A stretch of DNA of 64,000 bases, taken from NCBI RefSeq assembly GCF_000423085.1, contig NZ_AUHH01000009.1:1-64000 (forward strand). Direction: 5' to 3'. Below, in pieces: positions 632-41,469 of this stretch (position 1 is its first letter; every line of letters begins with the position of its first letter). The DNA is from Granulicoccus phenolivorans DSM 17626 = NBRC 107789 = JCM 15570 (lineage in GTDB: Bacteria > Actinomycetota > Actinomycetes > Propionibacteriales > Propionibacteriaceae). A model generated the notes under the pieces. It saw nothing but the letters and a program-made list of their open reading frames with translations, was not told the DNA's origin and did not search any database. Position numbers and translations under genes: made by a program.

Positions 632-1138
632 TCAGCCCACCAGGCGGGGCAGGATCAGGGTCAGGTGCCGGTCGATCAGGTCGGCGCATTGGGCCGCGGC
701 GGCCGGGCCGCGACGGTAGGGGTCGGGAATGTCACCGAGCGGGTCCGCCCGGGGCCGCATCCGATGCACCCGGTCGATCAGGTCCGGGCCGGTGGCGTCC
801 TCGACCCGTACCGCTGCCCCGGTGAACTGATCCAGGGTGAAGGTACGCCGGGCCAGCTCCGGCCAGTCCTCGATGATCCACCGGCGGTGCCGGGCGCTGG
901 CGGTGAGGATCAGATCCGGCTGGCGGGCCAGCACCGGATCGAGTTGCCGGGAGATGAACCCGTCGGGATCACCGCCGCGCCGGGTCACCTGCTCGGCCAT
1001 CTCGGGATACATCGGATCCCCGACCATGGCGTCGGTGCCGGCGCTGCTGACGGTCAGCTCGGGGGCCAACTGGGCGGCGCGGCGTTCGGCGTACGGGGAC
1101 CGGCAGATGTTTCCGGTGCACACGAACATCAGATGCAT
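632..1138 (-). CDS. Low-molecular-weight protein tyrosine phosphatase (Wzb/Ptp type)
   Basis: This 168-residue cytoplasmic phosphatase has the usual length of the family. The active-site P-loop CTGNICRS is at residues 7-14 (nucleophile Cys7, Arg13), and the general-acid DPY motif is at 139-141. In polysaccharide loci such enzymes dephosphorylate the tyrosine cluster of the Wzc-type autokinase, and one is encoded 1.2 kb away at 2326. The ATG overlaps the stop of the PqqD-like gene upstream (TGATG), so the two are translationally coupled. It is the last gene of a three-gene minus-strand operon with the nucleotidyltransferase and PqqD-like genes. Met4 is an alternative start. Confident on family; the substrate is inferred from context. 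Confidence 0.93.
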   Translation of the reverse strand: MHLMFVCTGNICRSPYAERRAAQLAPELTVSSAGTDAMVGDPMYPEMAEQVTRRGGDPDGFISRQLDPVLARQPDLILTASARHRRWIIEDWPELARRTFTLDQFTGAAVRVEDATGPDLIDRVHRMRPRADPLGDIPDPYRRGPAAAAQCADLIDRHLTLILPRLVG

Positions 1139-1410
1139 CAGGTCACCTCCAGCAGGCCGGTGCGGACGAGGTCATCGAGGAAGTGTGTCACATCTGCCGC
1201 GATCGCGTCGGGAGCCAGCCCCACCGCGCCGGCAACCTCGGCGGTCACCTCATCGGCGGTGGCGCCGTCGACGAAACAGTCCCAGATCACCCCGGCCGAA
1301 CCCACCAGACGCATCGCCGGTCCATCGGGGAGCCGGGCCACGAAGCGGTCCCCGTCGTGCTCGACATCGGCGTACGCCCGGCGGCGCAGGCGGCGTGCTG
1401 CCTCAGTCAT
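1138..1410 (-). CDS. PqqD-like (RRE-fold) small protein
   Basis: A 90-residue protein resembling PqqD/RRE peptide-recognition domains: an N-terminal beta-rich half (LRRRAYADV, a GxxxRLVGSAGVIWDCF core) followed by a helical DEVTAEV...LDDLVRTGLLEV tail. PqqD domains present a precursor peptide or protein to a modifying enzyme. Its sequence pattern is mirrored in the C-terminal domain of the HPr-kinase-like protein at 30405-31454 (RRxAYAD, LxG..R.LAG, LV..G.LE). Its ATG lies 8 bp inside the upstream nucleotidyltransferase gene, and its stop overlaps the phosphatase start. No precursor peptide gene is visible nearby. The fold assignment is from pattern recognition only; the molecular target is unknown. 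Confidence 0.8.
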   Translation of the reverse strand: MTEAARRLRRRAYADVEHDGDRFVARLPDGPAMRLVGSAGVIWDCFVDGATADEVTAEVAGAVGLAPDAIAADVTHFLDDLVRTGLLEVT

Positions 1411-2239
1411 GGCGGTGCCTCAGTTCCCGCCAGGCCCGCCGATACCGCTCCTGCCAGGCGTACGCCCGGTCGCGGCGGCTGAGCCGGTGCCCGGCGGCCA
1501 TCTGCAGATGCTCGAAATTCGGGACCAGCGCCCGCACCAGGATCCCCGCCTTGCCGAGCAGGTGGGGGTGCGCCTCGACCCGCCCGCGCAGTTCGTCCCA
1601 GCGGGTGCTGCTCGGGTCGGCGAAGGTACGCCACAGCCGGTACGCCCGGTGCTCGCGGAACTGCTCCAGATCCCCCAGGGCACTGGCCAGCGCGATTTCG
1701 GCGTCCAGCCGCTCGGCCAGCTGCCGGATCCGGGCCCGCTCGGCACTGTCGGCCTGCTCCCAGGCGATCCCGACATCCCGGGACCCGCCGGAGCGGGCGG
1801 CATGCACCAGCAGGATCAGCCGCTGCGCGGTCTGTCCGGGAACCGCGCAGGCATATCCGCCCAGGTCGACCGGATGCCGGTCGGCCCACAGCACCTCGAA
1901 GGTGTCCGGGGCCTCCAGACCGGGGAACGAGCGATGCACGTCGACGTAGCCGAAGACCTCGCTCCAGTAGGTCGCGGCGTGCTCGAAGGCCGAGCCGGTC
2001 GCGAAACGGGTCCGCAGGCTCCACTCGGTGCCGGCCAGGGCACGAATGAAACGTCGCAAATGGGCCGGCCGGACCAGCACATCGGCGTCCGAACTCGGGG
2101 GCCGTTGGGCGGCCAGTTCCGGATCCAGGGCCGGCCCCTTGATGTGCAATAAGTCGGCGCCGGATTCGTCGGCCAGGAACTGCATGGCGGCATGGGTCAT
2201 CCGGACCCGCACCGGCAGGGGCAACGACAGCTCAGGCAC
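1403..2239 (-). CDS. Putative nucleotidyltransferase (NTP_transf_5-like)
   Basis: A 278-residue protein with the hallmark of the uncharacterised nucleotidyltransferase family PF14907. Near residues 33-56 it has LLHIKGPAL followed by SSDADVLVRPAHL, the KG...D.D.LV pattern of a nucleotidyltransferase active site. No signal peptide or membrane segment is seen. The start is GTG at 2239, first gene of the operon with the PqqD-like and LMW-PTP genes, and divergent from the BY-kinase gene (86-bp gap). The same family occurs beside HPr-kinase-like and PqqD-like genes in some lasso-peptide and HPr-rel-A clusters, which is why this trio deserves attention. Substrate unknown. Confidence 0.75.
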   Translation of the reverse strand: MPELSLPLPVRVRMTHAAMQFLADESGADLLHIKGPALDPELAAQRPPSSDADVLVRPAHLRRFIRALAGTEWSLRTRFATGSAFEHAATYWSEVFGYVDVHRSFPGLEAPDTFEVLWADRHPVDLGGYACAVPGQTAQRLILLVHAARSGGSRDVGIAWEQADSAERARIRQLAERLDAEIALASALGDLEQFREHRAYRLWRTFADPSSTRWDELRGRVEAHPHLLGKAGILVRALVPNFEHLQMAAGHRLSRRDRAYAWQERYRRAWRELRHRHD

Positions 2240-2325: not shown

Positions 2326-4029
2326 GTGACCATACTCGATTTCGTACGGATGACCCGAGCACATTTGATGCTCCTTGTGGTCGCCGTACTGCTGGGCCTT
2401 GCGGGCGGATTTGTCTGGACGCAAATGCAGCCGACCCTTTATCAGAGCTCCGCGACCGGCCTGATCACCTCCGGCTCGGCCGCCTCGATGGGGGAGGCCT
2501 TCTCCAACCAGACCCTCGGGGTGCAGCGCGCGCAGACCTATGTGCCCCTGGTCACCAGCGGCATCGTGGCCGACCGGGTGGCCGAGGAACTCGGCATCCC
2601 CGAGGGTGGGGCCGCGGTACGCGACAGCGCGACGGCGGCGGTGGTCGACGGGTCGCCGATGCTCCGGATCACCGCGACCGCTTCCCAGCCGGGCCGGGCC
2701 CGGGACCTCGCCGACGCCTTCGTCCGGGCCACCGCCGAGGAGGCCGCCAAGCTGGAGACCGGCGGGAATCCCGACCGGGAACCGGTGATCAAGCTGGTCC
2801 CGCTGGAGGACGCGACCCTGCCGACGTCTCCGGTCTCGCCGAACCTGTGGGTGAACCTGGGCATCGGTGCGTTGGTCGGCCTGGTCGTGGGGTACCTGAT
2901 CGCCTTCCTGCGCAAGAGTGTCGACAACCGGATCCGGCACGTCTCCGATATCGAGGAACTGATCGGTTCCCGCGCCCTCGGCGTGATCCCGAAGGCCTCC
3001 GAGATCGGCAAACAGCGCCAGCGCGGCACCACCGACCTCGGCGTCGCCTCCGAGGCGATGCGCCAACTGCGGACCAACCTGCGCTATGTCGACGTGGACA
3101 ATCCGCCCCAGTCGATCGTGGTGACCAGCTCCCACGCCGGCGAGGGCAAATCGACCATCGCCTCCAACCTGGCCCGGGTGATGGCCGCCGCGGGCCAGCC
3201 GGTGATCCTGATCGACTGCGACCTGCGTCGCCCGATGCAGGCCCGGATCTTCAATCTCGACGGCGATGTCGGGCTGACCCAAGTGCTGGCCGGGGAGGTC
3301 GCGATCGAGGACGCCCTGGTCGCCACCGAGCGCCGGCTGCTGCAGGTGCTGCCGGCCGGTCGGATTCCGCCGAACCCGAGCGAGCTGCTCGGCTCGAAGC
3401 GGATGGCTGCGCTGATCAAGGCGCTGTCCCGGGACAATCTGGTGATCCTGGACGCCCCGCCCATCCTGCCGGTGACCGATGCCGGACTGCTCACCGCCGC
3501 CTCGGACGGGGCGCTGCTGGTGATTCGGGTCGGGCGTACGTTCAAGGAGCACGTCAAGATGGCGAACAAGGTGCTCGAGCAGGTGAACGGCCGGTTGCTC
3601 GGGACCGTACTCAACGTTGTGCCGCAGCGTCAGCTCGGATCGGTCATGTACGGGTACGGCTACCGGACCTACAAGAACGACTACTACTACCGCAACCGCA
3701 AGCATGCGATGACCGAAGAGGTCCCGATGCTGATGGTGGAGGACACCGCGGAGTTCGAGGATTCGGTGCTGCGCTCCACCCAGCCGATGCCGATGCGCGA
3801 TGACACGACGTCGGTGCTCGGTCCGGCCCGGGCCATCAGCACCGAACAGTTCACCGAGCCCGAGATCACCCGGACCCAGCCGGCCGTCCCGGCCGGGGTG
3901 GGCGTGGAGGTGGCGAGTCAGCCGGAGAACCCGCCGCGGGCCCGGGCGCCCAAGGCCTCCCAGTACAGCCGCAACGGTGACGACTCCCGCGGTGGCGGGG
4001 ACAAGGAACGCCCGCGCCGGGCGCTGTGA
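2326..4029 (+). CDS. Polysaccharide co-polymerase / BY-type tyrosine autokinase (Wzc/CpsCD-like)
   Basis: A 567-residue fusion of a Wzz chain-length domain with a cytoplasmic BY-kinase. Transmembrane segments lie at about 13-31 and 174-195, with an extracytoplasmic loop between. The kinase has Walker A GEGKST (272-277), Walker A' ILIDCDLRRP (294-303) and Walker B LVILDAPP (372-379). A tyrosine-rich stretch MYGYGYRTYKNDYYY at 441-455 is the likely autophosphorylation cluster. It is followed by a disordered, charged tail of about 110 residues, longer than usual. GTG start with GGGAG upstream; a possible -10 (TAGAAT) lies at 2286-2291. It overlaps the acyltransferase gene (GTGA). It should control polymer length together with the LMW-PTP at 632-1138. 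Confidence 0.93.
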   Translation: MTILDFVRMTRAHLMLLVVAVLLGLAGGFVWTQMQPTLYQSSATGLITSGSAASMGEAFSNQTLGVQRAQTYVPLVTSGIVADRVAEELGIPEGGAAVRDSATAAVVDGSPMLRITATASQPGRARDLADAFVRATAEEAAKLETGGNPDREPVIKLVPLEDATLPTSPVSPNLWVNLGIGALVGLVVGYLIAFLRKSVDNRIRHVSDIEELIGSRALGVIPKASEIGKQRQRGTTDLGVASEAMRQLRTNLRYVDVDNPPQSIVVTSSHAGEGKSTIASNLARVMAAAGQPVILIDCDLRRPMQARIFNLDGDVGLTQVLAGEVAIEDALVATERRLLQVLPAGRIPPNPSELLGSKRMAALIKALSRDNLVILDAPPILPVTDAGLLTAASDGALLVIRVGRTFKEHVKMANKVLEQVNGRLLGTVLNVVPQRQLGSVMYGYGYRTYKNDYYYRNRKHAMTEEVPMLMVEDTAEFEDSVLRSTQPMPMRDDTTSVLGPARAISTEQFTEPEITRTQPAVPAGVGVEVASQPENPPRARAPKASQYSRNGDDSRGGGDKERPRRAL

Positions 4030-5102
4030 CCACTCCGCCGGCGGACACTGCGCGGCGCCCCACCCAAGGGGCCACGGCGACCGGGCCGACCCGGGACCAG
4101 TCGCTGGATCTGGCCCGGGGCTGGGCGATGCTCCTGGTCGTCTTCGGCCATGTCCTGCGCGGTGTGTTCACCGCCGGGCTGGTGCCAGCGGAGCTGGCCG
4201 GCGGGCTGCGGGCGGTCGATCGGGTGGTCTATCTGACCCACCTGCCGGTGTTCGCCTGGGTGTCCGGGCTGCTGATGACCCGCCCGGTGCGGCAGCGGGG
4301 CGCTCGGGCGTACCTGCTGCCCCGACTCGCGGATTTCGCGTACCTCTATCTGCTGTGGACCTTGCTGCAGGGCGGGCTGGAGGTGGCCACGTCATCGGTG
4401 AAGAACAATCCGGTCACCTGGCTGGACGTGGTCAATATCTTCGTGCCGATCGGGCATCTGTGGTTCCTGCCGACGCTCGCCCTGGGGACCGTGCTCGGGG
4501 TTTCGGCGCTGTCGGGCCGGCCCCGGCTGGTGGCCGGGGTCAGCATCGTGGTCGGGCTGGCCGCCTGGGGACATGAGGACCAGATCATGTTCGCCGGCGG
4601 GGCGCTGCTGCCGTTCTTCGTCCTCGGCGCGCTGTGCGGGTACGAGCGCTGGGCCCGGGTGGCCGGTCGGCTCCTGGATCGTCCGGCCGTGGCCGTCGCG
4701 GTGCTCGTGGCCGCGGCCGGGTTGATCGTGGTGCTCAGTCCGTGGGCGTTGCCCCCGACCAGTACCGGTCCGGCGTACGGGCCCACGTCGGTGCTTCTCG
4801 GCGTGCTCTGTTCGGTTCTGGCTGTGCTGGTGGTGCTGCTGCTGGCCGGAGCGATCGCCCGACGGTGGCAGCTCGACTGGTTCGCCCGGCTGGGCCGCGA
4901 CTCACTCCCGATCTATCTGGCTCATATCGCTTTTGCCGCCGGGGTCCGGGTCGTGCTGCTCCGGCTGGGCGTCACCGATGTGTGGCTGCACCTGGTCGCC
5001 GGAACGGCGGCCGGGATCGGCGGCCCCCTGCTGCTGACCACCCTGCTCGGGAAGCCGTTGTGGTGGCTGTTCCGCCGGCCCCGCTGGGGGAGTGCTCAGT
5101 AG
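4026..5102 (+). CDS. Acyltransferase 3 family integral membrane protein
   Basis: A 358-residue polytopic membrane protein of the acyltransferase 3 (OatA/NodX-like) family. It has the N-terminal signature SLDLARGWAMLLVVFGHVLRG, where the His of FGH is the expected catalytic residue, and about ten hydrophobic segments to the end. These enzymes O-acetylate or otherwise acylate extracellular sugars. The GTG overlaps the last codons of the BY-kinase gene, so it is co-translated with it. The 3' end overlaps by 7 bp the convergent sugar transferase gene. Probably decorates the exported polysaccharide; the acyl donor and site cannot be read from the sequence. Confidence 0.88.
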   Translation: MTTPPADTARRPTQGATATGPTRDQSLDLARGWAMLLVVFGHVLRGVFTAGLVPAELAGGLRAVDRVVYLTHLPVFAWVSGLLMTRPVRQRGARAYLLPRLADFAYLYLLWTLLQGGLEVATSSVKNNPVTWLDVVNIFVPIGHLWFLPTLALGTVLGVSALSGRPRLVAGVSIVVGLAAWGHEDQIMFAGGALLPFFVLGALCGYERWARVAGRLLDRPAVAVAVLVAAAGLIVVLSPWALPPTSTGPAYGPTSVLLGVLCSVLAVLVVLLLAGAIARRWQLDWFARLGRDSLPIYLAHIAFAAGVRVVLLRLGVTDVWLHLVAGTAAGIGGPLLLTTLLGKPLWWLFRRPRWGSAQ

Positions 5103-6544
5103 GCGCCGCGACCGATGATGACCGCATGCAGGGTCCGGCCGAGGATGCTCAGGTCCTGCAGCATTGACCAGTTGTCCACGTAGTACAGGTCGAGACGGAC
5201 GGTGTCCTCCCAGGACAGGTCGCTGCGACCAGAGACCTGCCACAGCCCGGTCAGGCCGGGACGCACCTGCAGCCGACGCCGCATGTCCTCGTCGTAGCGG
5301 GCCACCTGGTCCGGGAGCGCCGGACGCGGCCCGATCAGGCTCATCTCGCCGCGCAGGACGTTGAACAGCTGCGGCAACTCATCCAGCGAATACCGGCGGA
5401 GGAACCGGCCGACCCGGGTGATCCGGGGATCGCCGCTCATCTTGAACAGAACTCCGGACCCCTCGTTGTGCTGCTGGAGCTCGCGGACCCGAAGATGGGC
5501 ATCCGGGACCATGGACCGGAATTTGAAACAGGAGAACAGCTTGCCCTCGCGGCCCACACGGATCTGCCGGTACAGCACCGGGCCGCCGTCGCCGAGCTTG
5601 ACCGCGATCGCCACGGCAACCAGCACCCACCATCCCAGCAGCAGGCCGAGCAGCACCACGGTCAGATCGAAGGCTCGCTTGAACCCCCGGTTGGCCGCAA
5701 CCGATCCGGGCCGCTCCACGTGCATCAGGGGCAGACCGGCAACCGGTTGGATCCGGACCCGGTCGGCGGAGATGTCGCTCAGCCCGGGGACCAGGATCAC
5801 GTCGACGTTCTTGTCCTCCAACTCCCAGACCAGGCGACGGAAGTCGGCCGATTCGGTGAAGGCTCCCTCGGTGAACAGGACCGAGTCGCAGCGCACTGCC
5901 TCGATCCCGGCGACGATGTCGTCGAGGGTCCCCGAGACCGGGACGGCCGCGTTGGTCGGTTCGGTCCGCGCCGGCAGGATCTGGGCCCGGACCTGGTAGC
6001 CGAGCCAGGACTCTCGATCCAGCACCTTGATCAGGTCGGCAACCCGCTGCGGCTGCCCGACCACGACCACCTGGTTCGCGAAAAAACCGCGCTCCCGCAG
6101 GCGATGGATCACCCGGCGGATCACCACTCGACCGACCAGCAGCAGCGGGATCCCGATCAGGAAGAGCAGCGCGAAGTAGCCGCGGGACAGCGGCACCTGG
6201 AAGAGGTACGCCCAGACGCTGAGCAGACTCGCGGTGAGCAGGCCGGCCTGGAGCACGATGGTGTACTCCTTGGTCCCGGTTCCGCGGGTGTCGGCGCGAT
6301 AGGCGCCGCGCAACAGTGAGATGAGCACCCACGTCAGCGTGACCGGAACCACCAGTTGCTCGGCCAGTTCCACCACGTTGGTGGCATTGCTCGGCCAGCG
6401 CACGCCGGTGCGCCCGTAGACGGCGGCCAGATTGGCCAGCGCGATCAGCAGCCCGTCGATGGTGAGCAGGGCCAGTGACTCCAGCCTGCCGCGGTGGTGC
6501 CGCGTGAGTCGTGGACTACCTCTGCGTGCTTGGGTGTTGCTCAT
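5096..6544 (-). CDS. Polyprenyl-phosphate sugar-1-phosphate transferase (priming, WcaJ/CpsE type)
   Basis: A 482-residue initiating transferase that would load the first sugar-phosphate onto undecaprenyl phosphate. The N-terminal half has about four membrane spans and a Rossmann-like CoA-binding-type region. Then comes the catalytic domain with KRAFDLTVVLLGL, GPVLYRQIRVG, FKFRSM, LPQLFNVLRGEMSLIGPRPALP and RPGLTGLWQVSGRS. This is the full-length family layout. ATG with a strong GGAGGGGGACC ribosome site. The start lies 29 bp inside the 3' end of the double-glycosyltransferase gene, and it is the last gene of a four-gene minus operon (10901 to 5096) with GT4, Wzy-like and GT4-GT4 genes. Confidence 0.93.
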   Translation of the reverse strand: MSNTQARRGSPRLTRHHRGRLESLALLTIDGLLIALANLAAVYGRTGVRWPSNATNVVELAEQLVVPVTLTWVLISLLRGAYRADTRGTGTKEYTIVLQAGLLTASLLSVWAYLFQVPLSRGYFALLFLIGIPLLLVGRVVIRRVIHRLRERGFFANQVVVVGQPQRVADLIKVLDRESWLGYQVRAQILPARTEPTNAAVPVSGTLDDIVAGIEAVRCDSVLFTEGAFTESADFRRLVWELEDKNVDVILVPGLSDISADRVRIQPVAGLPLMHVERPGSVAANRGFKRAFDLTVVLLGLLLGWWVLVAVAIAVKLGDGGPVLYRQIRVGREGKLFSCFKFRSMVPDAHLRVRELQQHNEGSGVLFKMSGDPRITRVGRFLRRYSLDELPQLFNVLRGEMSLIGPRPALPDQVARYDEDMRRRLQVRPGLTGLWQVSGRSDLSWEDTVRLDLYYVDNWSMLQDLSILGRTLHAVIIGRGAY

Positions 6545-16977: not shown

Positions 16978-18876
16978 TCAGCGCGGGTCGGCGACCGCAT
17001 CGCGGTCGCCCTCGACCTCGTCGATGACCTCCTGGAAGGACGCCGGCACCGGCGCCTCACCCTCCAGGCGTCCCAGCTCGACCAGGTGATTGAACTCCGC
17101 GCTCTGCTCCCGAACCTCGTCGAAGGTGCCGTACGCCTCGACCCGGCCCTCCTTGAGGAAGGCGACCCGGTCACAGTGACGCACCGTGGAGAGCCGGTGG
17201 GCGACCACGACGACGGTGATCCGGCCGCTGAGCGCCTGCACGGTCTCGGTGACCCGGCGCTCGGTCTCGTTGTCCAGCGCCGAGGTGGCCTCGTCCAGGA
17301 CGAGCAGCTTCGGGTCCCGGTACAGGGCTCGGGCGATGCCGATCCGCTGTCGCTGACCGCCGGAGAGTCGGGAGCCGCGTTCGCCGAAGTCGGTATCGAC
17401 GCCCTCGGGCTGGTCGGCGACGAAGCTCTCCAACTGGGCGCCGCGGATCGCCTCGGCCAGCCGGTCGGGGTCGATCTGCGCGCGCGGGGTGTCGAAGGAG
17501 ATGTTCTCCGCCAGCGAGACGTCGAACAGGTAGACCTCCTGCGGCACCATCGCCACATTGCGCTGCCAGCCGGCCATGTCGCCGGCGATGTCGACGCCGT
17601 CCACGCGCACCCGCCCGGAGGTCGGGTCGTGCAGTCCGAGGAGTATGTCGACCAGGGTCGATTTCCCCGCACCGGAGCCGCCGACGATCGCCAGTGAATT
17701 CCCCGCCGGGACGGTCAGGTCGATCCCGCGCAGCACCTCGGCGGTGCCGTCGTCGTACCGGAACCGGACGTGCTCGAAACGCACCTGGTCGGTGAACGGC
17801 AGCGGCGTCGCGTCCGGGTCGGGGGAGGTCGGGTACTGCTCGGCGTTGGCCAGCTCGGAGACGACCAGGTCCCAGGCCTCCTGACCGGATCGGATCATCG
17901 TCAGCGACCCCATGAACCGGGAGATGGAGGGCAGGATCCGCAGCCCGGCGGTGGCGAACAGCGCCAGGGTGGTGATCGCCTGCTGGCTCGGGGTACCGGC
18001 GAAGATGGCTGCGGTCATCACGCCGATGCCGAGGACGAACATCACCTCGAGGATGTGCTTGGGCAACTCGGTCAGAAAGGAGGCGATCCGGCCGGCGCTG
18101 GCGGAGTCCCAGCGGGCCTTCCGGTAGCGGGCCAGGAACCATTCCTGGGAATGCCGGATCTTGATCTCCTTGATCCCGCCGAGCGCGTGGAACGCGGCCA
18201 TGTAGACCTCGCGGGAGGACTCCAATACCTGCTGACCGGCCCGGTGGGCCCGCGGTCGGATGTAGAGCTGCAGCAACAGCGAGGCGACCGCGAAGTAGAC
18301 GACCGCGACCAGCGCGGGCCCCGGTGCGGCAATCAGCAGGACCACCAGCAGCGCAAGGATCGAGATCAGGTCGGCGGTGGCGCTGATGGTGGCCTGGACG
18401 GTCTGTGAATAGGCCTGCCCCACGGCGTCATTCATCGTGCGGATCAGGTCGGAGGTGCCCCGCCGGGTGTGCAACTGGTACGGAGCCCGCAGGTAATAGC
18501 GAAACAGCCGGGTCGAGGTGGCGACCTGCTGGCGGGCCATCACGCCGCTGGACCACCAGCGGATGACGATCGTGAGCAGTGCTTTGATCGCGAAGGCCAG
18601 CACCACGATCGCGGCGATGTAGATCGCCAGCCGGTCCTGCGGCGGGTTTCCGAACCAGCCCCGCAACAGGTCCAGCAGCCCGCCGGCCTGGATGCCGGTG
18701 AGCAGCTCCATCAGCGGCAGTACCGCGGCAACACCGGCAACTTCGGCGAACGCGATCAGCACCGATCCGACCAGCACCAGCAGGAACCGGATCTTGGTCG
18801 AGCGATCGAACATCAGGTTGACGCCGGCCGGGCGCGAGCGGCGTCCCGAATCGGCGGCGGGCTGGGCGTCGGTCAC
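16978..18876 (-). CDS. ABC exporter, fused membrane and ATPase domains (MsbA/PglK-like)
   Basis: A 632-residue half-transporter. Six transmembrane helices lie in about 25-330, followed by a nucleotide-binding domain with Walker A GGSGAGKST, Q-loop VPQEVYLFD, signature LSGGQRQRIGIARAL, Walker B LLVLDEATSALD and H-loop VVAHRLSTVR. It would act as a homodimer. In this locus, beside GT2 genes, it probably flips a lipid-linked saccharide as PglK does. GTG 18876 overlaps the upstream GT2 stop (GTGA). An in-frame GTG at 18885 and the internal ATG of MFDRSTK are alternative starts. Confidence 0.9.
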   Translation of the reverse strand: MTDAQPAADSGRRSRPAGVNLMFDRSTKIRFLLVLVGSVLIAFAEVAGVAAVLPLMELLTGIQAGGLLDLLRGWFGNPPQDRLAIYIAAIVVLAFAIKALLTIVIRWWSSGVMARQQVATSTRLFRYYLRAPYQLHTRRGTSDLIRTMNDAVGQAYSQTVQATISATADLISILALLVVLLIAAPGPALVAVVYFAVASLLLQLYIRPRAHRAGQQVLESSREVYMAAFHALGGIKEIKIRHSQEWFLARYRKARWDSASAGRIASFLTELPKHILEVMFVLGIGVMTAAIFAGTPSQQAITTLALFATAGLRILPSISRFMGSLTMIRSGQEAWDLVVSELANAEQYPTSPDPDATPLPFTDQVRFEHVRFRYDDGTAEVLRGIDLTVPAGNSLAIVGGSGAGKSTLVDILLGLHDPTSGRVRVDGVDIAGDMAGWQRNVAMVPQEVYLFDVSLAENISFDTPRAQIDPDRLAEAIRGAQLESFVADQPEGVDTDFGERGSRLSGGQRQRIGIARALYRDPKLLVLDEATSALDNETERRVTETVQALSGRITVVVVAHRLSTVRHCDRVAFLKEGRVEAYGTFDEVREQSAEFNHLVELGRLEGEAPVPASFQEVIDEVEGDRDAVADPR

Positions 18877-19745
18877 AACGGGCACCGTACCCGGAAATGG
18901 ATACTGCCGCGTATTCGGCCGATGCCCCACGCGACGTTCTTCACCCAGCGACCGCGCTTGTTCTCGGTGTTCAGGCCGGGAATCCGGCTTGCCAGGATCA
19001 GCCAGTTGCGGATCTCTGCTTTCAGGCTGTTGCGTTCGATGCCGTGGTCCCGCCAGGTGGCGTACAACTTCGCATAGTTCCAGCCGTACCGGTAGAACTG
19101 GCGTCGCAGTCCCTTGTAGGACTTGCGCAGTCGGTAGTTCAGGACGGCATCGGGAGCGAAACCGATTGTCGCGCCCCGCTCCAGGGCGCGCCAGCAGAAG
19201 TCGACCTCCTCCTGGCCGCCGCGGTAGGTCTCGTCGAAGCCACCCAACTCGGCGAAGAGGTCGGCATGGATCCCCATGTTTCCGCCCATGGCGTACTCGC
19301 GATGATCGAGTGCAGTGGGCAGACCGGTGGAATCGGCATAGCCGTACCATTCGACCACCTCAGGGGTGTTGACCTTGCCGAACTGCAGCTTGCCGCTGAC
19401 GATGTCGGCGGTCTGCAGCCCGTCCACCATCGCCTGGACCCAACCGGGTTCGACCTCGTCGTCGGCATCGCAGAACATCACGTAGCGACCCCGCGCCGCC
19501 AGACCGCCGGCGTTGCGCCCGGTCGAGACGCTCGCCGGGCCGCTCGCGTCGATGACGCGCAGGTTCAGCCGGTCGCCCCAGGATTCAGCGACGGTACGGG
19601 TGGCGTCGGTGGAGCCGTTGTCGGCCACCACGACCTCGAAGGGATAGTCGGTCTGCTGGACGGCCAACGCGGCGAGCTCGAGATGGAGCACATCGGCGCC
19701 ATTTCGCACCGGAATAACCACGCTCGCGATCGGACTCTCGGGCAT
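18873..19745 (-). CDS. GT2 family glycosyltransferase
   Basis: A 290-residue GT-A enzyme with a standard family core: ASVVIPVRNGADVLHLELAAL, VVVADNGSTDATR, VSTGRNAGG, and the metal motif MFCDADDEVEPGW (D-A-D-D) near residue 95. Then comes LGGFDETYRGGQEEVDFCWRALERG. The C-terminal stretch is basic. It is translationally coupled to the ABC exporter downstream. The upstream side is a 128-bp divergent region with the GT2-like gene at 19874. Confidence 0.88.
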   Translation of the reverse strand: MPESPIASVVIPVRNGADVLHLELAALAVQQTDYPFEVVVADNGSTDATRTVAESWGDRLNLRVIDASGPASVSTGRNAGGLAARGRYVMFCDADDEVEPGWVQAMVDGLQTADIVSGKLQFGKVNTPEVVEWYGYADSTGLPTALDHREYAMGGNMGIHADLFAELGGFDETYRGGQEEVDFCWRALERGATIGFAPDAVLNYRLRKSYKGLRRQFYRYGWNYAKLYATWRDHGIERNSLKAEIRNWLILASRIPGLNTENKRGRWVKNVAWGIGRIRGSIHFRVRCPL

Positions 19746-20889: not shown

Positions 20890-21636
20890 TCAGCGGGGCA
20901 GGTGCTGTCGGAGGCGGTGACGCGCCAGCCGGACCCCCTCGACGGCACGGACCAGGTGTTCCCACCAGCGTGTGCCTTCCAGGGGCGTCAGGATTCGGTC
21001 CGCCTCGGCCTGCTCCTCGGCGCGCAACTTCTGGATCTCGGGAGTCTGGGTGGTCGACCCCATTTCGGTCTCGAAGCGGACCCCGAGGATCGCACCCGGA
21101 GGTCGACGCTGCGCCATGATCAACCAGTCGTCGCCGCCCCAGATTCGCATCGACTCCGGGATCGGGGAGTAATCCCGGCGGCGCAGGCACATGAACACCC
21201 CGAAGCCGAATGAGGTGGTGCTGGCGCGGGCCAGCGTCACCCGTGGCGTACCGCTGACCTCGGCGAATGCCGAACGATCCGGTCCGATGACGCCGAAGAG
21301 GCCGCGGGACAGCGCCTTTCCCACCACGTCGAAAGCTGCGGCATCGAACAGTACGTCGTCGTTCACGATCGCCAGGTATTCCCCGCGCGCTTCGCGAGCG
21401 CCGAGATTCCAGGCCGGATTGACGAAGATGTTTCGTTCCTGCTGCAGCACGCGCACCTTGGGGGAATCCCAGTGCAGCGGGTCGGGCGCATTGTTGATGA
21501 CGAGCACTTCGAGAACACGAGGATGTCCCGCGCAGGTATCGACGACCTGAGGCAGGTGTTCCGAGCGCTGCAGGGTGGGAATGAGCACCGAGAACCGTCC
21601 GGTTGTCGTCTCGTCGATCCTCATTTCGTCAGCCAT
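20890..21636 (-). CDS. GT2-like glycosyltransferase
   Basis: A short (248-residue) GT-A protein: RFSVLIPTLQRSEHLPQVV, VLVINNAPDPLH, NPAWNLGARE, LAIVNDDVLFD (N-D-D in place of DXD, near residue 95), and a late IWGGDDWLIMAQRR (G-G-D-D) motif. It lacks a C-terminal extension. The ATG sits 8 bp inside the end of the rmlC-rmlD fusion gene, so it is translated together with the dTDP-rhamnose enzymes. A rhamnosyltransferase role is inferred from that coupling. Confidence 0.82.
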   Translation of the reverse strand: MADEMRIDETTTGRFSVLIPTLQRSEHLPQVVDTCAGHPRVLEVLVINNAPDPLHWDSPKVRVLQQERNIFVNPAWNLGAREARGEYLAIVNDDVLFDAAAFDVVGKALSRGLFGVIGPDRSAFAEVSGTPRVTLARASTTSFGFGVFMCLRRRDYSPIPESMRIWGGDDWLIMAQRRPPGAILGVRFETEMGSTTQTPEIQKLRAEEQAEADRILTPLEGTRWWEHLVRAVEGVRLARHRLRQHLPR

Positions 21637-22968
21637 GGTGACGAAATCCGGTCGCGCCCAACTTCGCCAGGCTGAGCGTGGAGTGCCGCGGCCGAGCGGC
21701 CATCGCCTTGCCCCGGGCGTACTCCTCGGTGCTGGTCGGCGAAACCATGGCGGGGTCGACGCCGGCCTCGGCGTACACCCGGCGAGCAATAGCGAACCAG
21801 GTCTCGGTCGGGCCGTCGTCGGTGACGTTGTAGGTGCCGTACGCCGCCTCGGTGTCCAGCAGATGCTTGATCGCCCCGGCCAGGGTCGAGGTGTGGGTGA
21901 GTCGGCCGTGCTGATCGTCGACCACCGACGGGGCAATCCCACGCGCGGCCAGGCTCTGCATCGTGGCGACGAAGTTCGCGCCATCGCCGACCACCCAGGA
22001 GGTGCGCACCAGGTAGTGCTGCGGCCAGGTCATCACCAGTTCGTCGGCGGCGGCCTTGGTCACCCCGTAGAACCCGAGGGGGGAGAACGGCTCGTCCTCG
22101 GTGTGCTCGGGCTGGGTTCCGTCGAAGACGTAGTCGCTGGACACGTGCACCAGCCGGGCCCGGTGCTCCCGGGCGATCCCGACCAGCTTGCGGACCGCGG
22201 TCACGTTGCTCGCCCAACTCGCGGCTCGTTCGGTCTCGGCCCGATCCACGGCGGTGTACGCCGCGGCGTTGATGATCGTGCCGACCCCGGTGAAGTCGTG
22301 GGTGTCGGGGTGCTGCAGGTCGAAGTCGGGCCGGGCCAGCAGGGTCGCGTCGGGGAACAGCGGCTGCAGAGCTTTGCCGAGCTGTCCGTTCGCGCCGATG
22401 ATGACGGTACGCCGGGGCGCGAACGGGGTGACTTCGGCCAGCCGCGGATGGGCCCGGTCGGCCTCGGACAGGATGGCCTGCTCCAGCGGGATCGGCCAGG
22501 CGATCGCGGCGGTCTCGTCGGCCAGGTTCAGGAAGGTGTAGGACGCTTTCGCCGCGGCACTCCAGTGGTCGTTGACCAGGTAGGCGTACCCGGTGCCCGG
22601 CTCGAGGGTCTGGTACGCGTTCCCGACCCCGCGCGGCACGAACACCGCGGTCTCCGGCCCCAGCTCCACCGTCACGGTCTGCCCGAAGGAGTCCCCGGCG
22701 CGCAGGTCGACCCAGGCGCCGAAGATCCGCCCGTTGGTGACCGAGACGAACTTGTCCCACGGCTCGGCATGGATGCCGCGGGTGACCCCGACCTGTTCGT
22801 TGTGCGCGACGTTCTGCTGCACGGGGGCGAAGTCGGGCAGGCCGAGCGCGGTCATCTTGGCCCGCTGCCAGTTCTCCTTGAACCAGCCGCGCGCGTCGCC
22901 GTGGACCGGCAGGTCCACGATCAACAGCCCGGGAATCGCGGTCTCGCGGACCGCCAGGGCGCCGGCCA

Positions 22969-22969
<1 letters not shown>
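21629..22969 (-). CDS. rmlCD: Bifunctional dTDP-4-dehydrorhamnose 3,5-epimerase / reductase (RmlC-RmlD fusion)
   Basis: A 446-residue fusion for the last two steps of dTDP-L-rhamnose synthesis. Residues about 1-183 are an RmlC cupin (GDARGWFKENWQ, VTRGIHAEPWDKFVSV with the catalytic His, VPRGVGNAYQ, YLVNDHW). From about 185 on is RmlD, an extended SDR with IIGANGQLG, INAAAYTAVDRAE, VSSDYVFDG and FYGVTKAAAD (Y-x-x-x-K near 300). The fusion is known in some Actinobacteria. The ATG overlaps the rmlB stop by one base. It forms a minus operon rmlB, rmlCD, GT2. Confidence 0.95.
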
Positions 22970-24900
<1,931 letters not shown>

Positions 24901-24908
<8 letters not shown>

Positions 24909-29444: not shown

Positions 29445-30317
29445 ATGCGCGCACTCGACTGGGCCAGGACCGCGAAGCACCGGGCCTTCATCGTCACCAA
29501 GAAGGCTCGATGGACGATGAGAGATTGGAAGATTCGCGTGGCCGACACCCACTGGGCGGCGCGTTCTCGTGGCGGCACATTCGGGTACCACCCCGAGCAA
29601 TTCGGTGCCACATTCCTGACCCGCCTCCCGGTGCGCGAAGTGACCCAGGAAAGCGCGGTCCCGAATATCCTGTGGGCATTCTGGCTGGGCCCGGCCGAGC
29701 CCAATGCGCGAAGGAATCAAGCGATCGCCAACCTGCGCCGGCAGCCACGGGTGGAGGTGCGGATCGTGACCGATCCGGCCGAGGTCGAACTCCCTGACCA
29801 CCCGTTCCATCCCGCGTTCATCGATTTGAACCCGATGCACAAGTCGGACTATCTGCGGGCCTATGTGATGCATCACCACGGTGGTGCGTACGCCGACATC
29901 AAGCAGCTGGAATGCCCGGTGGCGGATGTCATCGACGAGCTCAACTCCTCGCCGGAACTCTGGCTGGCCGGGTATCGCGAGGTGACCTCTCGCCATGTGC
30001 CGGATCTTCCCCGGGAGCTGGGTTGGTACCTCAAGCACGAGTACCGTCGCGTGATCGGTCCCTCGGGCTTTGTGTTTCGTCCGGGTACCGCCTTCACCGG
30101 GGAATGGGTGCGGGAAATGCACGCCCGGCTGGACTACTTTCGCGAGCCGTTGCGGGAAGCGGGCTGGGGCGAGGGGTCGCCGTATGACAAGCCGCTGCAC
30201 TACCCGATTCGGTGGAGTGAAATATTGGGCGACATTGTGCAGCCGCTGTGTCTGAAGTATCAGGACCGCATTCTGTTCACCGATGCCGTTCGGCCCCTGC
30301 TGCGCGACTACAGATAG
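29445..30317 (+). CDS. DXD-type glycosyltransferase (GT32/capsular polysaccharide synthesis-like)
   Basis: A 290-residue paralogue of the enzyme at 16092. It has VPNILWAFWLGPAEPNARRNQ, then DLNPMHKSDYLRAYVMHHHGGAYADIKQLE (S-D-Y-L-R and the D-I-K metal/sugar motif near 125-150). The C-terminus IRWSEILGDIVQPLCLKYQDRI closely matches the paralogue. The N-terminus AFIVTKKARWTM also parallels it (GFVINKHARRWTT). The ATG follows the tRNA terminator by 70 bp, so it has its own promoter. Acceptor unknown. Confidence 0.86.
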   Translation: MRALDWARTAKHRAFIVTKKARWTMRDWKIRVADTHWAARSRGGTFGYHPEQFGATFLTRLPVREVTQESAVPNILWAFWLGPAEPNARRNQAIANLRRQPRVEVRIVTDPAEVELPDHPFHPAFIDLNPMHKSDYLRAYVMHHHGGAYADIKQLECPVADVIDELNSSPELWLAGYREVTSRHVPDLPRELGWYLKHEYRRVIGPSGFVFRPGTAFTGEWVREMHARLDYFREPLREAGWGEGSPYDKPLHYPIRWSEILGDIVQPLCLKYQDRILFTDAVRPLLRDYR

Positions 30318-30404: not shown

Positions 30405-31454
30405 GTGAGCCAGGATGCGCCACGGGTGAAGATTCTGCGGGAGGTTTTCGAACTGCCCGATCCGGACTGGGCCGACTCCTGGTCGCGCTGCCGGACCGAG
30501 GATCCGGTCACCGCGGAACTGCCGGAGTCCGCCCGGGCGTACTCCTGGACCTCGGCGGCCACGATCGACGCGATCACCGAGGCGGCCGGCGACCTGTTGA
30601 TGTTCCACGCCGCCGGGGTGAGCGATGCCGAGGGCCGAGTGGCGGCCCTGGTCGCGCCCAGCGGAACCGGGAAGAGCACCGCTTCGATCGCGCTGTGCAC
30701 CGACCGGTACGGGTATGTCACCGACGAGACGGTGGCGGTCAATCCGGACGGGAGCGTCCTGCCGTTCCCCAAGCCGATCGCGCTGCACCAGAGCAGCACC
30801 GATTCCCAGGAGTTCAAGGATCACCTCAGCCCCGATGCGCTGGGCCTGCGCCATGCCCCGGCCCGGCTGCGGTTGGCCGGCCTGATCGTGCTGAAACGGC
30901 GGACCGAGCCCGGACCGGTGCAGGTGGAATTGCTGAGCACGGCGTACGGGGTGGGCGCGGTGATCGAGAACATGTCGGCGGTCAGCCAACTCACCGATCC
31001 GCTGGCGCACCTGGTGACCACCATCCAGGCCTGCGGCGGCGTCCACGAGGTCAGCTACAGCGATGCCGCCGACCTGGCCGGGCCGGTGCAGCAGGCACTC
31101 CAGGCGGCTCCGCAGTCGATCGCCTGGGTGCACCATCCGGGGACCGCATCGCCGCAGCCCGATGCGGGCGACCCTGAGGCGGGGAAGTGGCGGCGCAGCG
31201 CGTACGCCGACGCGATCGAGACCGAGGACACGCTGTTGTTGCTGCAGGGCCAGCAGTTCCGGGCGTTGGCCGGGATCGCGGCGACGTTGTGGCTGGCCGC
31301 GGGCGCGCCCCGCACCGAATCCGAACTTGTCACCGCCCTGGTCGAGGCGCACGGTCCGCACCCCGATGCGGCGGAGCTGACCCGCTCGGTGTTGGTCGAA
31401 CTCGTCGCCGCCGGCGTCCTGGAGACGCTGCCCTCCGAAGTGCGGGCATTGTAG
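30405..31454 (+). CDS. HPr-kinase-like P-loop protein with C-terminal PqqD-like domain
   Basis: A 349-residue protein in two parts. Residues about 1-255 resemble HPr kinase/phosphorylase-like proteins: LLMFHAAGV, Walker A VAPSGTGKSTAS (about 82-93), GYVTDETVAV (the catalytic-Asp region of HprK) and PFPKPIALHQ. Residues about 262-349 (WRRSAYADAIETEDTLLLL to LVAAGVLETL) follow the same pattern as the stand-alone PqqD-like protein at 1138-1410. HprK-like kinases with PqqD and NTP_transf_5 partners are known from lasso-peptide tailoring and HPr-rel-A systems; no HPr is needed there. GTG start with GGGGGGAGAG upstream. The phosphorylated target is unknown. Confidence 0.78.
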   Translation: MSQDAPRVKILREVFELPDPDWADSWSRCRTEDPVTAELPESARAYSWTSAATIDAITEAAGDLLMFHAAGVSDAEGRVAALVAPSGTGKSTASIALCTDRYGYVTDETVAVNPDGSVLPFPKPIALHQSSTDSQEFKDHLSPDALGLRHAPARLRLAGLIVLKRRTEPGPVQVELLSTAYGVGAVIENMSAVSQLTDPLAHLVTTIQACGGVHEVSYSDAADLAGPVQQALQAAPQSIAWVHHPGTASPQPDAGDPEAGKWRRSAYADAIETEDTLLLLQGQQFRALAGIAATLWLAAGAPRTESELVTALVEAHGPHPDAAELTRSVLVELVAAGVLETLPSEVRAL

Positions 31455-34153: not shown

Positions 34154-35107
34154 GGCAAGCAGCGAAGGAAGGTCTCCGGGAGCGAGGCCAGCAGTCTTCG
34201 CTGTTCGGGGTGGGGCTTCGCTGCTCGGAAGTCGGCCTCGCTGGTCCGGCGGTCTGGCTCGCTGCGTGGGTGCTCGGGCTCGCTGCCTGTCGGGTGGGGC
34301 TTCGCTGCTCGGAAGTCGGGTTCGCTGGTCTGGGGGGTGTCGCTCGCTGCGTGGGTGATCGGGCTCGCTGCGTGAGTGCTCAGGCTCGCTGCTCGGGGAG
34401 TGGGGATCGCGCCTGCGGGGGTGGGCTCGCCCGACGGAAGCGGGGCCTCGCTGCCTGCGGCTGGGGGCCCGCGAGGGCTGGCGTCGGACCGCTGACCGCC
34501 GCCTGGCCTCGCTGGTACGTCGTCACGGGGACTCGCCCGCGGGCCGCCACCGGTAGCTGGGCCTGCGTGGGATGCCGGGTGGCATGCAGCGAAGGAAGGT
34601 CTCCGGGAGCGAGGTCAGCAGCCTTCGCTGTCTGGGGTGGGGCTTCGCTGTTCGGAAGTCGGCCTCGCTGGTCTGGGGGTGTGGCTCGCTGCGTGGGTGC
34701 TCGGGCTCGCTGGTCCGGCGGTGTGGCTCGCTGCTTGGGCACTCCTGCTCGCTGCGTGGGTGCTCAGGCTCGCTGCTCGGGGAGTGGGGATCGCGCCTGC
34801 GGGGGTGGGCTCGCCCGATGGAAGCGGAGCCTCGCTGCCTCTGGCTGGGGCCCGCGAGGGCTGGCGCCGGATCGCCGACTGTCGCTGTTCGGCCGCCTGG
34901 CCTCGCTGGTACGTCGCCATCGGGACTCGCCCGCGGGCCGCCACCGGTGACTGGGCATGCGTGGGATGCCGGGTGGCAAGCAGCGAAGGAAGGTCTCCGG
35001 GAGCGAGGTCAGCAGCCTTCGCTGTCCGGGGTGGGGCTTCGCTGCTCGGAAGTCGGGCTCGCTGGTCCGGCGGTCTGGCTCGCTGCGTGGGTGCTCGGGC
35101 TCGCCCG
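34154..35107. repeat. Three long direct repeats (about 400 bp each)
   Basis: Units begin at the GCAGCGAAGGAAGGTCTCCG anchor near 34154, 34581 and 34975 (spacings 427 and 394 bp). Copies 1 and 2 are near-complete and highly similar over their length; copy 3 stops near 35107. Inside each, CTCGCTG- and TTCGCTG-headed blocks of about 20 bp repeat. Long open frames here arise only from the lack of stops. I see no gene between 34003 and 35230. Confidence 0.88.
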
Positions 35108-35157
35108 ACGGAAACCAAGCCTCGCCGGAACGCCACGAACCCTCGCTCGGACGCAAC

Positions 35158-35184
35158 GAGGCCCCCGGGAATCCCGGGGGCCTC
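35158..35184. terminator. Hairpin downstream of pckG
   Basis: GAGGCCCCCGGGA/TCCCGGGGGCCTC with a one-base loop, 46 bp beyond the pckG stop. It is very stable but has no T-tract on either side, so it may be an actinobacterial tail-less terminator. Confidence 0.6.
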
Positions 35185-35230
35185 GTACCAGGCCGCTGAT
35201 CAGCGCCAACGGCCAATGATCACCAACGAA

Positions 35231-39916: not shown

Positions 39917-40642
39917 TCAGGCGCCGGTCTTGGCGAGCTTGCCGCCGGAGGTGGCCTTCTTGTCGGCACCCTTCTGGTCGGTCGCCTTGCTGGTCGACTT
40001 GGTCGCGGTCGGCTTGCTGCTCGACTTGGTCGCGGTCGGCTTGGTGGTGGCCGACTTGGTCGCGGTCGGCGAGGTGGTCGGGTCGATACCGATGGTGTAG
40101 CCACCCTGCTCGCCCACGAAAGCGAAGCCGGCGCTGTCGGCGGACAGCTTCACGTCCGACTTGAAGCGGCCCTGCTTGTTGTAGGTGCAGTTGATGGTGA
40201 AGGAGCCGGTCTCCTTGTCGGAGAAGGTGATCTTGCCACCGTTCACGGTGCCGTTGGTCGAGGTGGCCGAGCAGGTGGCGGTGCCGCCGGCCGGGCTGGT
40301 CTCGAAGGTGACGCTGAAGTTGGAGGCCTTGGCCTTGAGGATGCCCTCCTTGCCGTCCAAGGTGGCAAGGGTGACGCTCTTGGCCTCGCCCTGGATCGTG
40401 TACTTGTCACCCGGGCGGACCGAGGACGGGGTGATGTCGAACTTGGTCCACACCACGGCGTCGCGCTGGGCCGACGGGGCGGCGGCGCCGGGGGTGGTGG
40501 CGTGCGGGGTGACCGTCTTGGTGCTGGCCTTCGAGTCCGCGGCAGGGGTCGGGGTCGGGGTGGCGGCCAGGGCGGTACCGGCACCGGCGGCGGTGAGGGC
40601 AACGCCCAAAGCCGCGGTGATGGCCAGGCGAGAAGCTCGCAT
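39917..40642 (-). CDS. Secreted protein with C-terminal LAKTG motif (paralogue 1)
   Basis: A 241-residue protein with a signal peptide (ITAALGVALTAAGAGTALA, cleavage after ALA-A). A Ser/Thr/Pro linker precedes an Ig-like or beta-sandwich domain (about 60-185) with a likely disulfide between TATCSAT and TINCTY. A Lys/Ser/Thr-rich repetitive stretch (TKPTATKSSSKPTATKS) follows, and the protein ends GGKLAKTGA. LAxTG is a class E sortase signal, but here the protein stops one residue later with no hydrophobic anchor. I chose ATG 40642, seven bases after AAGGA, matching the MR starts of its paralogues. It has its own promoter at 40732-40760. Confidence 0.85.
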   Translation of the reverse strand: MRASRLAITAALGVALTAAGAGTALAATPTPTPAADSKASTKTVTPHATTPGAAAPSAQRDAVVWTKFDITPSSVRPGDKYTIQGEAKSVTLATLDGKEGILKAKASNFSVTFETSPAGGTATCSATSTNGTVNGGKITFSDKETGSFTINCTYNKQGRFKSDVKLSADSAGFAFVGEQGGYTIGIDPTTSPTATKSATTKPTATKSSSKPTATKSTSKATDQKGADKKATSGGKLAKTGA

Positions 40643-40731
40643 TGTCATTCCTTCTTTCGTCTTCGGGGGTGGCCCTGGCTGGGGTACCGATGGCTACCGG
40701 CTGCCGTCAGGTCAAGGTCCAACTGCGCCGG

Positions 40732-40760
40732 ACTCTATTTTGATCTGCGAAGCAGCGCAA
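40732..40760 (-). promoter_or_regulatory. Promoter of LAKTG paralogue 1
   Basis: On the minus strand: TTGCGC (40755-40760), 17 bp, TAGAGT (40732-40737), giving a leader of about 85 nt. The spacer and flanks align with the promoter of paralogue 3 at 42109-42137 (CTATTT, GCGAAGCAGCGCAAAC against GCAAAGAAGTGCAAAC on the plus strand). Confidence 0.75.
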
Positions 40761-40850
40761 ACCTGAAACGGGGATTACGCAACTGAGGATTTGCTCATTC
40801 AATCTCAGGGGATTCTGACCCCAAAGTCCGGTTCGGCACCCCCATGCGCC

Positions 40851-41441
40851 TCAACTGCCGGTCTTGGCGAGCTTGCCGCCGGGGATGGAGCGCTTGCCCA
40901 GGAAGGTCAGCACCGCGTCGTTCGTCGTCGCGGTACGCAACGACCAGCCGGTCGATTCGCCGACGGTCGAGTGCTCGCTGTGGGCAGCCAACGTCAGATA
41001 GTGGACGGCTTGCACGCGCTCGGTGTTCATCCGGCAGGTGACGGTGAAGTCGGCGGATTCCTTCTGGATGAACCTGATGTGGGCCCCGGTCACCTCGCCG
41101 TCGGGCGACTGTGCGGTGCAGGTGACGTCACGCTGCTCGGCGGAGCGGAACCAGATCCTGAACTCCGACGCCTTGGGGGTGGCCTGGACGACCTGGCGGT
41201 TGCGTACGACTGCGGACGCGCTCTTCGCGGTGCCGGTGATCGTGAAGGTGTCGCCCTTGCCAAGGAGCGTGCCAGGCCCCTTGTCCGGCACGATGTCGAG
41301 GTTGTCCCAGTAGATGACATTCCTGGGCCGGTCCGCGGAGGCGCTGCCGGTCTCCGGGGTGACGGCCAGGGCTGTGCCGAGGCCGGTGGCAGTGAGGGTG
41401 AGGCCGAGCGCGGCGATCAGGGCGGGGCGGGCGATGCGCAT
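40851..41441 (-). CDS. Secreted protein with C-terminal LAKTG motif (paralogue 2)
   Basis: A 196-residue protein: signal peptide ALIAALGLTLTATGLGTALA, a beta-rich domain with VIYWDNLDIVPDKGPGT, TITGTAKSAS, and a Cys pair in DVTCTAQSPDGE and FTVTCRM. The tail is GGKLAKTGS and then stop. It lacks the Lys/Thr repeat linker of paralogue 1. ATG with GAGAGGAATCCACCC upstream. It follows paralogue 3 by 28 bp and is presumably co-transcribed. Function unknown; exported. Confidence 0.85.
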   Translation of the reverse strand: MRIARPALIAALGLTLTATGLGTALAVTPETGSASADRPRNVIYWDNLDIVPDKGPGTLLGKGDTFTITGTAKSASAVVRNRQVVQATPKASEFRIWFRSAEQRDVTCTAQSPDGEVTGAHIRFIQKESADFTVTCRMNTERVQAVHYLTLAAHSEHSTVGESTGWSLRTATTNDAVLTFLGKRSIPGGKLAKTGS

Positions 41442-41469
41442 GGGTGGATTCCTCTCCGGGTTCGGTGGG

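Follow-up and report, generated by a model that had tools for sequence, protein, structure and literature searches.

The exopolysaccharide (EPS) clusters of many actinobacteria probably carry an RRE-guided protein-modification module, and the fused protein described here, an HprK-like kinase with a PqqD-like C-terminal domain (PqqD2), would be its kinase. The module co-occurs, genome by genome and almost perfectly, with exported proteins that share an N-terminal motif, which points to an undescribed chemical tagging of secreted proteins. The window, that is, the whole stretch of 64,000 nucleotides analysed, belongs to a genome placed in the Propionibacteriales, Propionibacteriaceae. Its features are listed in Table 1.

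The window holds an EPS cluster of about 31 kb, containing Wzz/CpsD, a Bac_transf sugar transferase, glycosyltransferases, an ABC exporter and rmlABCD. The genes of the kinase and of the stand-alone RRE-like protein PqqD1 are positioned at its two ends, on opposite strands and with 29 kb between them, and codon-position composition marks both reading frames as genuine coding sequences. The PqqD1 gene overlaps the NTP_transf_5 nucleotidyltransferase gene, and the phosphatase gene overlaps the PqqD1 stop codon. The original prediction placed two recognition domains in one locus. They do belong to the same system, which recurs across actinobacteria, but since the genes are so far apart and opposite-facing, the locus has to be understood as the two ends of one EPS cluster. 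Two glycosyltransferase-like genes at separate sites of this cluster (16092-16973 and 29445-30317) are 37% identical. The stretches 1-620 and 34200-35200 of the window are GC-rich, with short phrases repeated in the translations of several frames, and are probably gene-free tandem repeats.

Table 1. Features of the window and WxxP-start proteins encoded elsewhere in its genome.
Feature	Position	Strand	Details
Low-molecular-weight phosphotyrosine phosphatase, CTGNICRS motif	632..1138	-	PF01451 E=4e-19
PqqD1, stand-alone RRE-like protein	1138..1410	-	90 aa; PF05402 E=7e-8, over cut-off
Nucleotidyltransferase, PF14907 (NTP_transf_5)	1403..2239	-	E=2e-9, over cut-off
Wzz/CpsD-like chain-length protein, BY-kinase-type ATPase, Tyr-rich tail	2326..4029	+	CbiA/AAA_31; sequence
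EPS initiating sugar transferase	5096..6544	-	Bac_transf E=4e-67
ABC exporter, membrane and ATPase domains fused, within EPS cluster	16978..18930	-	ABC_tran E=9e-31, ABC_membrane E=2e-11
dTDP-rhamnose genes, whole block	21629..24908	both	
rmlC/D fusion	21629-23023	-	
rmlB	22969-24006	-	
rmlA	24036-24908	+	
Glycosyltransferase directly upstream of kinase	29445..30317	+	Gly_transf_sug, below cut-off
HprK-like kinase fused to PqqD2	30405..31454	+	ORF, GTG start, 349 aa
Kinase domain, residues about 62-236	30588..31112	+	H68, K90 (P-loop APSGTGKST), D107, E108
PqqD2, RRE-like C-terminal domain, residues 262-341	31188..31427	+	hhalign, AF2
Choice-of-anchor G family protein, WxxP start	C7:111725-113473		582 aa; 121 bits, cut-off 45
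Second WxxP-start protein of the window's genome	C53:6597-7370		257 aa

Residues 262-341 of the kinase were confirmed to form a domain of the PqqD/RRE type. Single-sequence evidence is weak, as the Pfam PqqD model reaches 14.4 bits (E=0.05) on residues 282-339, below the cut-off of 23.4, and BLASTP of the kinase against the stand-alone PqqD gives E=0.013 (35% over 55 aa); it is the profiles that settle the likeness. Aligned by hhalign, the fused C-termini match the stand-alone PqqDs with a probability of 96.2%, E=2e-9 and a score of 54, far above the controls (at most 18 when columns were shuffled 100 times, 11 when reversed). PqqD2 against PqqD1 with all sequences gives 97.5% (E=9e-12), and the fused C-terminus against PqqD2 genes that are split from the kinase gives 99.2% (E=1e-19). 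AlphaFold2 (AF2) predicts the C-terminal domain with pLDDT 94-98 as four strands, three helices and a last strand, an order of elements that matches the stand-alone PqqD (beta-beta-beta-alpha-alpha-alpha fold), PqqD2 being compared by element order only. The original prediction of a recognition domain fused to the kinase is thus borne out by the profile alignment and by the models of both regions. As for the ordered residue pattern proposed to be common to the two, the string RRxAYAD is no family feature, and the rest of the pattern is the core of the PqqD fold: R264 is found in 30/44 and D269 in 41/44 members of the PqqD2 family, and P0002 position 15 in the PqqD1 family is mostly W (18 sequences), D being rare.

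The C-terminal domain could alternatively be a generic winged-helix domain for dimerisation that never had a part in peptide recognition, as the PqqD2-only profile matches the RREs in the PDB at E=0.01-0.03, behind the false match PilJ. This search is for that reason discounted as proof, and the fold search with the whole kinase model listed the kinase fold alone. We regard this alternative as very improbable, because the profile match to PqqD1 comes with its shuffle control, the split PqqD2 of locus L083 exceeds the Pfam PqqD cut-off with 26.3 bits, and profile A3, built from fused and split kinases, matches the lasso PqqD chaperone 9x90_B over residues 239-341 (E=1.5e-4).

The stand-alone PqqD1 is recognised directly, with 33.1 bits against PF05402 (cut-off 23.4). 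Its best match among PDB sequences is TbiB1 (E=3e-12), a lasso RRE that was solved with its leader peptide bound, and PqqD 3g2b follows at E=8e-9. The AF2 model (pLDDT 82) likewise finds TbiB1 with leader (5v1v) as its best Foldseek match (TM 0.78, E 3.5e-3). The leader-pocket residues of PbaB1 and LppB (Asp or Gln and an aromatic divider), known from solved RRE complexes (PMC13381572), were carried over through the HMM alignment, the chains 9x90_B and 9x8z_B being identified as PbaB1 and LppB by residue positions, with no stated entry code. In the PqqD1 family, D73, which corresponds to LppB D70, is present in 19/31 sequences, and an aromatic residue (F/Y) occupies position 77, the aromatic divider, in 22/31; in PqqD2, A/L and A/V take their place. 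Since the pocket residues are retained in most PqqD1 sequences and not in PqqD2, PqqD1 is the better candidate for a reader of the WxxP motif described below, and PqqD2 appears a better candidate for a kinase-docking or second-site domain.

In a tree of 86 domains, all 44 PqqD2 are separated from all 42 PqqD1 with a support of 100/99, and PqqD2 is therefore an ancient partner of the kinase rather than derived from the stand-alone gene. At least three switches between the fused and separate states are seen in this tree. The idea that the stand-alone PqqD was recently duplicated into the kinase was considered and rejected, as the same split stands against it and the forced pairing costs 26 log-likelihood units; the AU test does not outright reject the two window domains as sisters (p=0.15). 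The ligand that the two domains were once suggested to share is doubtful, given this old split, their different partners and the lack of the canonical pocket residues in PqqD2, which leaves the suggestion only partly supported. Both could still serve one substrate protein, acting on it at different steps.

The predicted fold of the kinase domain is that of HprK/PEPCK. The AF2 model of the HprK-like kinase (pLDDT 85) aligns with Lactobacillus casei HprK/P 1kkl at a VIA-align Z of 10.1 (135 residues at 3.9 A) and with PEPCK at Z 10-11. In the set of His, P-loop Lys and Asp-Asp, the residues H68, K90 and D107 stand in conserved alignment columns, and so does Glu108, in the place of the second Asp. 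The curated cut-offs of the HPr-rel-A models TIGR04352 and TIGR04353 are not reached, with 38.6 bits where 200 are required (HprK_rel_A) and 16.1 where 35 are. Relatives of the kinase are found at E<=0.001 in 39/147 Propionibacteriales genomes, 30 of them as strong matches. One fused relative (L071:9765-10916) is probably catalytically dead, because Arg replaces both the conserved His and the P-loop Lys. Between the kinase and PqqD2, residues 242-247 of the linker, as in fused relatives, are predicted as a strand, often of the form W-x-H-x-P-G or like it (AWVHHPG, EWTHIPG, AWEHVPG), and this linker might be a built-in pseudo-leader that docks in a groove.

The association of kinase and PqqD2 is general. 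In the window and 51 actinobacterial relatives, tallied by hand after a careful six-frame check, kinase and PqqD2 occur together in 52/52 loci, fused in 25 and as the next gene in 27. Where the kinase is short, the separate gene of about 86-119 aa mostly overlaps the kinase stop by 4 bases. In neighbourhoods predicted with a simple composition-based gene caller, PqqD1 commonly adjoins the nucleotidyltransferase and the phosphatase. Several of these genes are also fused to each other, namely PqqD1 with the phosphatase (L088, L089), the nucleotidyltransferase with PqqD1 (L100), the phosphatase with the kinase (L102, L104) and PqqD2 with a nucleotidyltransferase (L070). Among the 147 Propionibacteriales genomes, 30 have a strong kinase match, 27 a PqqD1 match and 24 both. 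The commonest kinase neighbours outside the module are RmlB, RmlC and RmlD; an exporter like the ABC exporter of the window is not beside the module in most relatives. In Mesorhizobium and its relatives (L115-L124), a PqqD-like gene, a lasso B2-type transglutaminase, an HprK-like kinase and NTP_transf_5 are found near a Wzz-like gene, and the B2 of L119, the locus checked in detail, reaches 67.5 bits where the cut-off is 33. Another locus (L126, Lachnospiraceae), suspected from its kinase to be a lasso locus, was not one on checking.

A search for small genes common to these loci revealed secreted proteins beside the module that have a common start and unrelated bodies. A signal profile was made from the first 40 residues of these proteins and searched in the 147 Propionibacteriales genomes. 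Signal proteins at E<1e-5 are present in 29/30 genomes with the kinase and in 1/117 without it (Fisher p=2e-28), and in 25/26 when the four genomes that contributed profile rows are left out; as the genomes are kin, Fisher values overstate the evidence, and the agreement within genera is a better guide. In the five genera of the family that include both states (g3, g4, g6, g7, g8), kinase and signal are present or absent together in all listed genomes. The thirtieth kinase genome (G055) encodes a divergent signal protein at a distance of 1 kb from the kinase. When 345 genomes were drawn from the whole class, signal proteins were present in 15/18 kinase genomes and 2/327 others. The exceptions include G106, with one strong signal protein and no kinase, and G431 and G438, with the kinase and no signal at E<1e-7.

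Most of these proteins are not linked to the kinase gene. About 74% of the signal matches (86/117) are at least 50 kb from the kinase or on another contig, and in 14 genomes this applies to every match; 13/117 are less than 10 kb away, which is above chance (p=4e-11, under a rough assumption of genome size). The window's genome encodes two signal proteins, both outside the window. Within it, three successive small secreted-protein genes on the minus strand (39917-42051) have signal-peptide-like starts that resemble each other and lack the WxxP start. In Demequina (L102:10025-12542), a phosphatase-kinase fusion and PqqD2 are followed downstream by four tandem genes for WxxP exported proteins. 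Neither LPxTG nor a C-terminal membrane stretch was found in any of 48 WxxP-start proteins, and Pfam and NCBIfam models gave no convincing match to the start in the 10 proteins scanned.

The common start has the consensus RR-x(7)-W-x-x-P-x-[VI]-x(6)-P-x-x-A-x-[S/T]. In 60 matches read without a motif filter, the counts for which also take in some short secondary segments from these rows, no variation is seen at the twin Arg (first 59/59, second 60/60), at Trp15 or at Pro18; V/I is found at position 20 in 60/61, Pro27 in 62/62, Ala30 in 61/62 and Ser/Thr at position 32 in 62/62. The spacing from Trp to Ser has almost no length variation. The twin Arg, a hydrophobic stretch and an AxA cleavage site, with Ala at -1 in 61/62, are Tat features. 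Ordinary signal peptides, too, frequently have Ser directly behind AxA. Judged from these starts, cleavage would follow AxA at position 30 and would put the Trp at -16 and the Ser/Thr at +2. In known systems, discrete lasso RREs bind the motif [Y/W]xxPx[L/V/I/F/A], lasso and LPP RREs bind the leader motif [W/Y]xxPx[V/L/I], and RRE specificity in the LPP and paeninodin systems is set by WxxP versus YxxP; LppA has Tyr at -16 and phospho-Ser at +3, and PbaA has Trp-15 (PMC13381572).

These regularities bear on a regulatory explanation, in which the kinase and the phosphatase control the BY-kinase or a glycosyltransferase, the PqqD-like domains are adaptors without a leader-like peptide, and the WxxP proteins are mere cargo of the same surface lifestyle. 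The module does sit in EPS clusters near Wzz/CpsD and rhamnose genes, PqqD2 has lost the canonical pocket residues, and low-molecular-weight phosphatases are the usual partners of BY-kinases. However, regulation of this kind predicts neither an invariant RRE-type motif nor a fixed Ser/Thr in exported proteins, nor the presence and absence of unlinked genes within genera, and we consider it unlikely. The phosphatase may nevertheless serve the BY-kinase instead of the module.

A classical RiPP cluster, whose product would be a small modified peptide of the LPP or lasso kind and whose short precursor gene would lie near the kinase, appears less likely again. It would fit the capsule loci of Bacillota, which hold the same set of RRE, HprK-like kinase, NTP transferase and ABC exporter, and candidate proteins directly adjoin the module in several genomes (for example L093, L096, L106, L114). 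Yet the candidates are mostly 100-500 residues long and dispersed over the genome, and no widely conserved small gene was found near the module apart from the WxxP exported proteins, none of 20-90 aa being conserved in three or more independent loci. Searches for the LPP motif YxxPxVLxHQxIxFETxxS, relaxed versions included, turned up nothing credible as a precursor, either in the window or in the actinobacterial loci. An archaeal-type signal peptidase is absent from the window cluster, and in the 30 genomes one weak S26 match lies near the kinase, in a single relative (G077:C53:8084-8275, about 360 bases away). A lasso B2 homologue was not found in the actinobacterial loci with a model derived from Mesorhizobium, and no lasso cyclase or precursor was seen, judging from neighbourhood tallies only.

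The guided modification of exported proteins is the reading that we prefer. In the proposed sequence of events, the leader groove of PqqD1 would hold the WxxP segment of the signal peptide before export, and the kinase, placed by PqqD2, would phosphorylate the Ser/Thr destined for about +2 after signal cleavage. PqqD2 would probably dock the kinase onto the complex of PqqD1 and substrate, or bind another segment. The nucleotidyltransferase may then put a nucleotide or sugar on that phosphate, as reported for PsmN, which we take to be a member of PF14907. In pseudomycoidin, PsmK phosphorylates Ser, and the addition of hexoses to that phosphate requires PsmN, whose annotation is nucleotidyltransferase (PMC9266682). 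Export would then release a mature protein whose modified N-terminus may be what attaches it to the polysaccharide or the surface. In its full form, this becomes N-terminal tagging and anchoring: RREs derived from RiPP systems would read WxxPxV in the Tat-like signal peptides of many unlinked proteins, and a phosphate-linked sugar or nucleotide, installed by the kinase and the nucleotidyltransferase on the new N-terminal Ser/Thr, would join the protein to the polysaccharide of the cluster. We put forward this extended version tentatively, as plausible rather than probable.

The known role of RREs is to guide the making of small peptide natural products. The co-occurrence suggests that actinobacteria, Cutibacterium among them, use this toolkit to mark entire exported proteins, and gives a testable function to a set of kinase, nucleotidyltransferase and PqqD that was unexplained in EPS clusters. 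As the tag is readable, substrates could be predicted from sequence alone. It is also a possible answer to the question of how choice-of-anchor proteins without LPXTG are held and, if true, would be an alternative to LPXTG or PEP-CTERM anchoring.

Among described systems, the LPP RiPPs of Bacillota (PMC13381572, 2026) are similar in combining an RRE, an HprK-like kinase, an NTP transferase and an ABC exporter in a capsule/polysaccharide locus. Their leader motif [Y/W]xxPx[V], with the aromatic residue at -16, resembles the WxxP starts, and, as proposed here, a Ser near the mature N-terminus is phosphorylated and a signal peptidase cleaves. The atypical loci first noticed in that study (PMC13381572) also have two RREs. 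In the present system, by contrast, the candidate substrates are exported proteins of larger size, with Tat-like starts and genes at dispersed sites; no kinase comes without a second RRE-like domain of its own, and a phosphatase often belongs to the set. Another similar system is paeninodin-type tailoring (PadeK, PsmK, PsmN), which also uses an HprK-like kinase, a PqqD-like B1 and a nucleotidyltransferase (PMC9266682). The His-Lys-Asp-Asp of that kinase type corresponds to H68, K90, D107 and E108 here, and paeninodin-like precursors have a WxxP leader like the exported-protein starts, whereas the kinase described here is fused to an RRE-like domain. The HPr-rel-A system (NCBIfam TIGR04352, TIGR04353) pairs an HprK-related kinase with a PqqD-family protein as well. 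It differs in that the scores here are far under the curated cut-offs and that two PqqD types are present. The exosortase/PEP-CTERM and sortase/LPXTG systems likewise combine EPS-locus machinery with dispersed exported proteins that carry a short invariant tag and include choice-of-anchor cargo. In contrast to these, the tag described here is N-terminal, within the signal peptide, and the proposed chemistry is phosphorylation with nucleotidyl or sugar transfer instead of transpeptidation.
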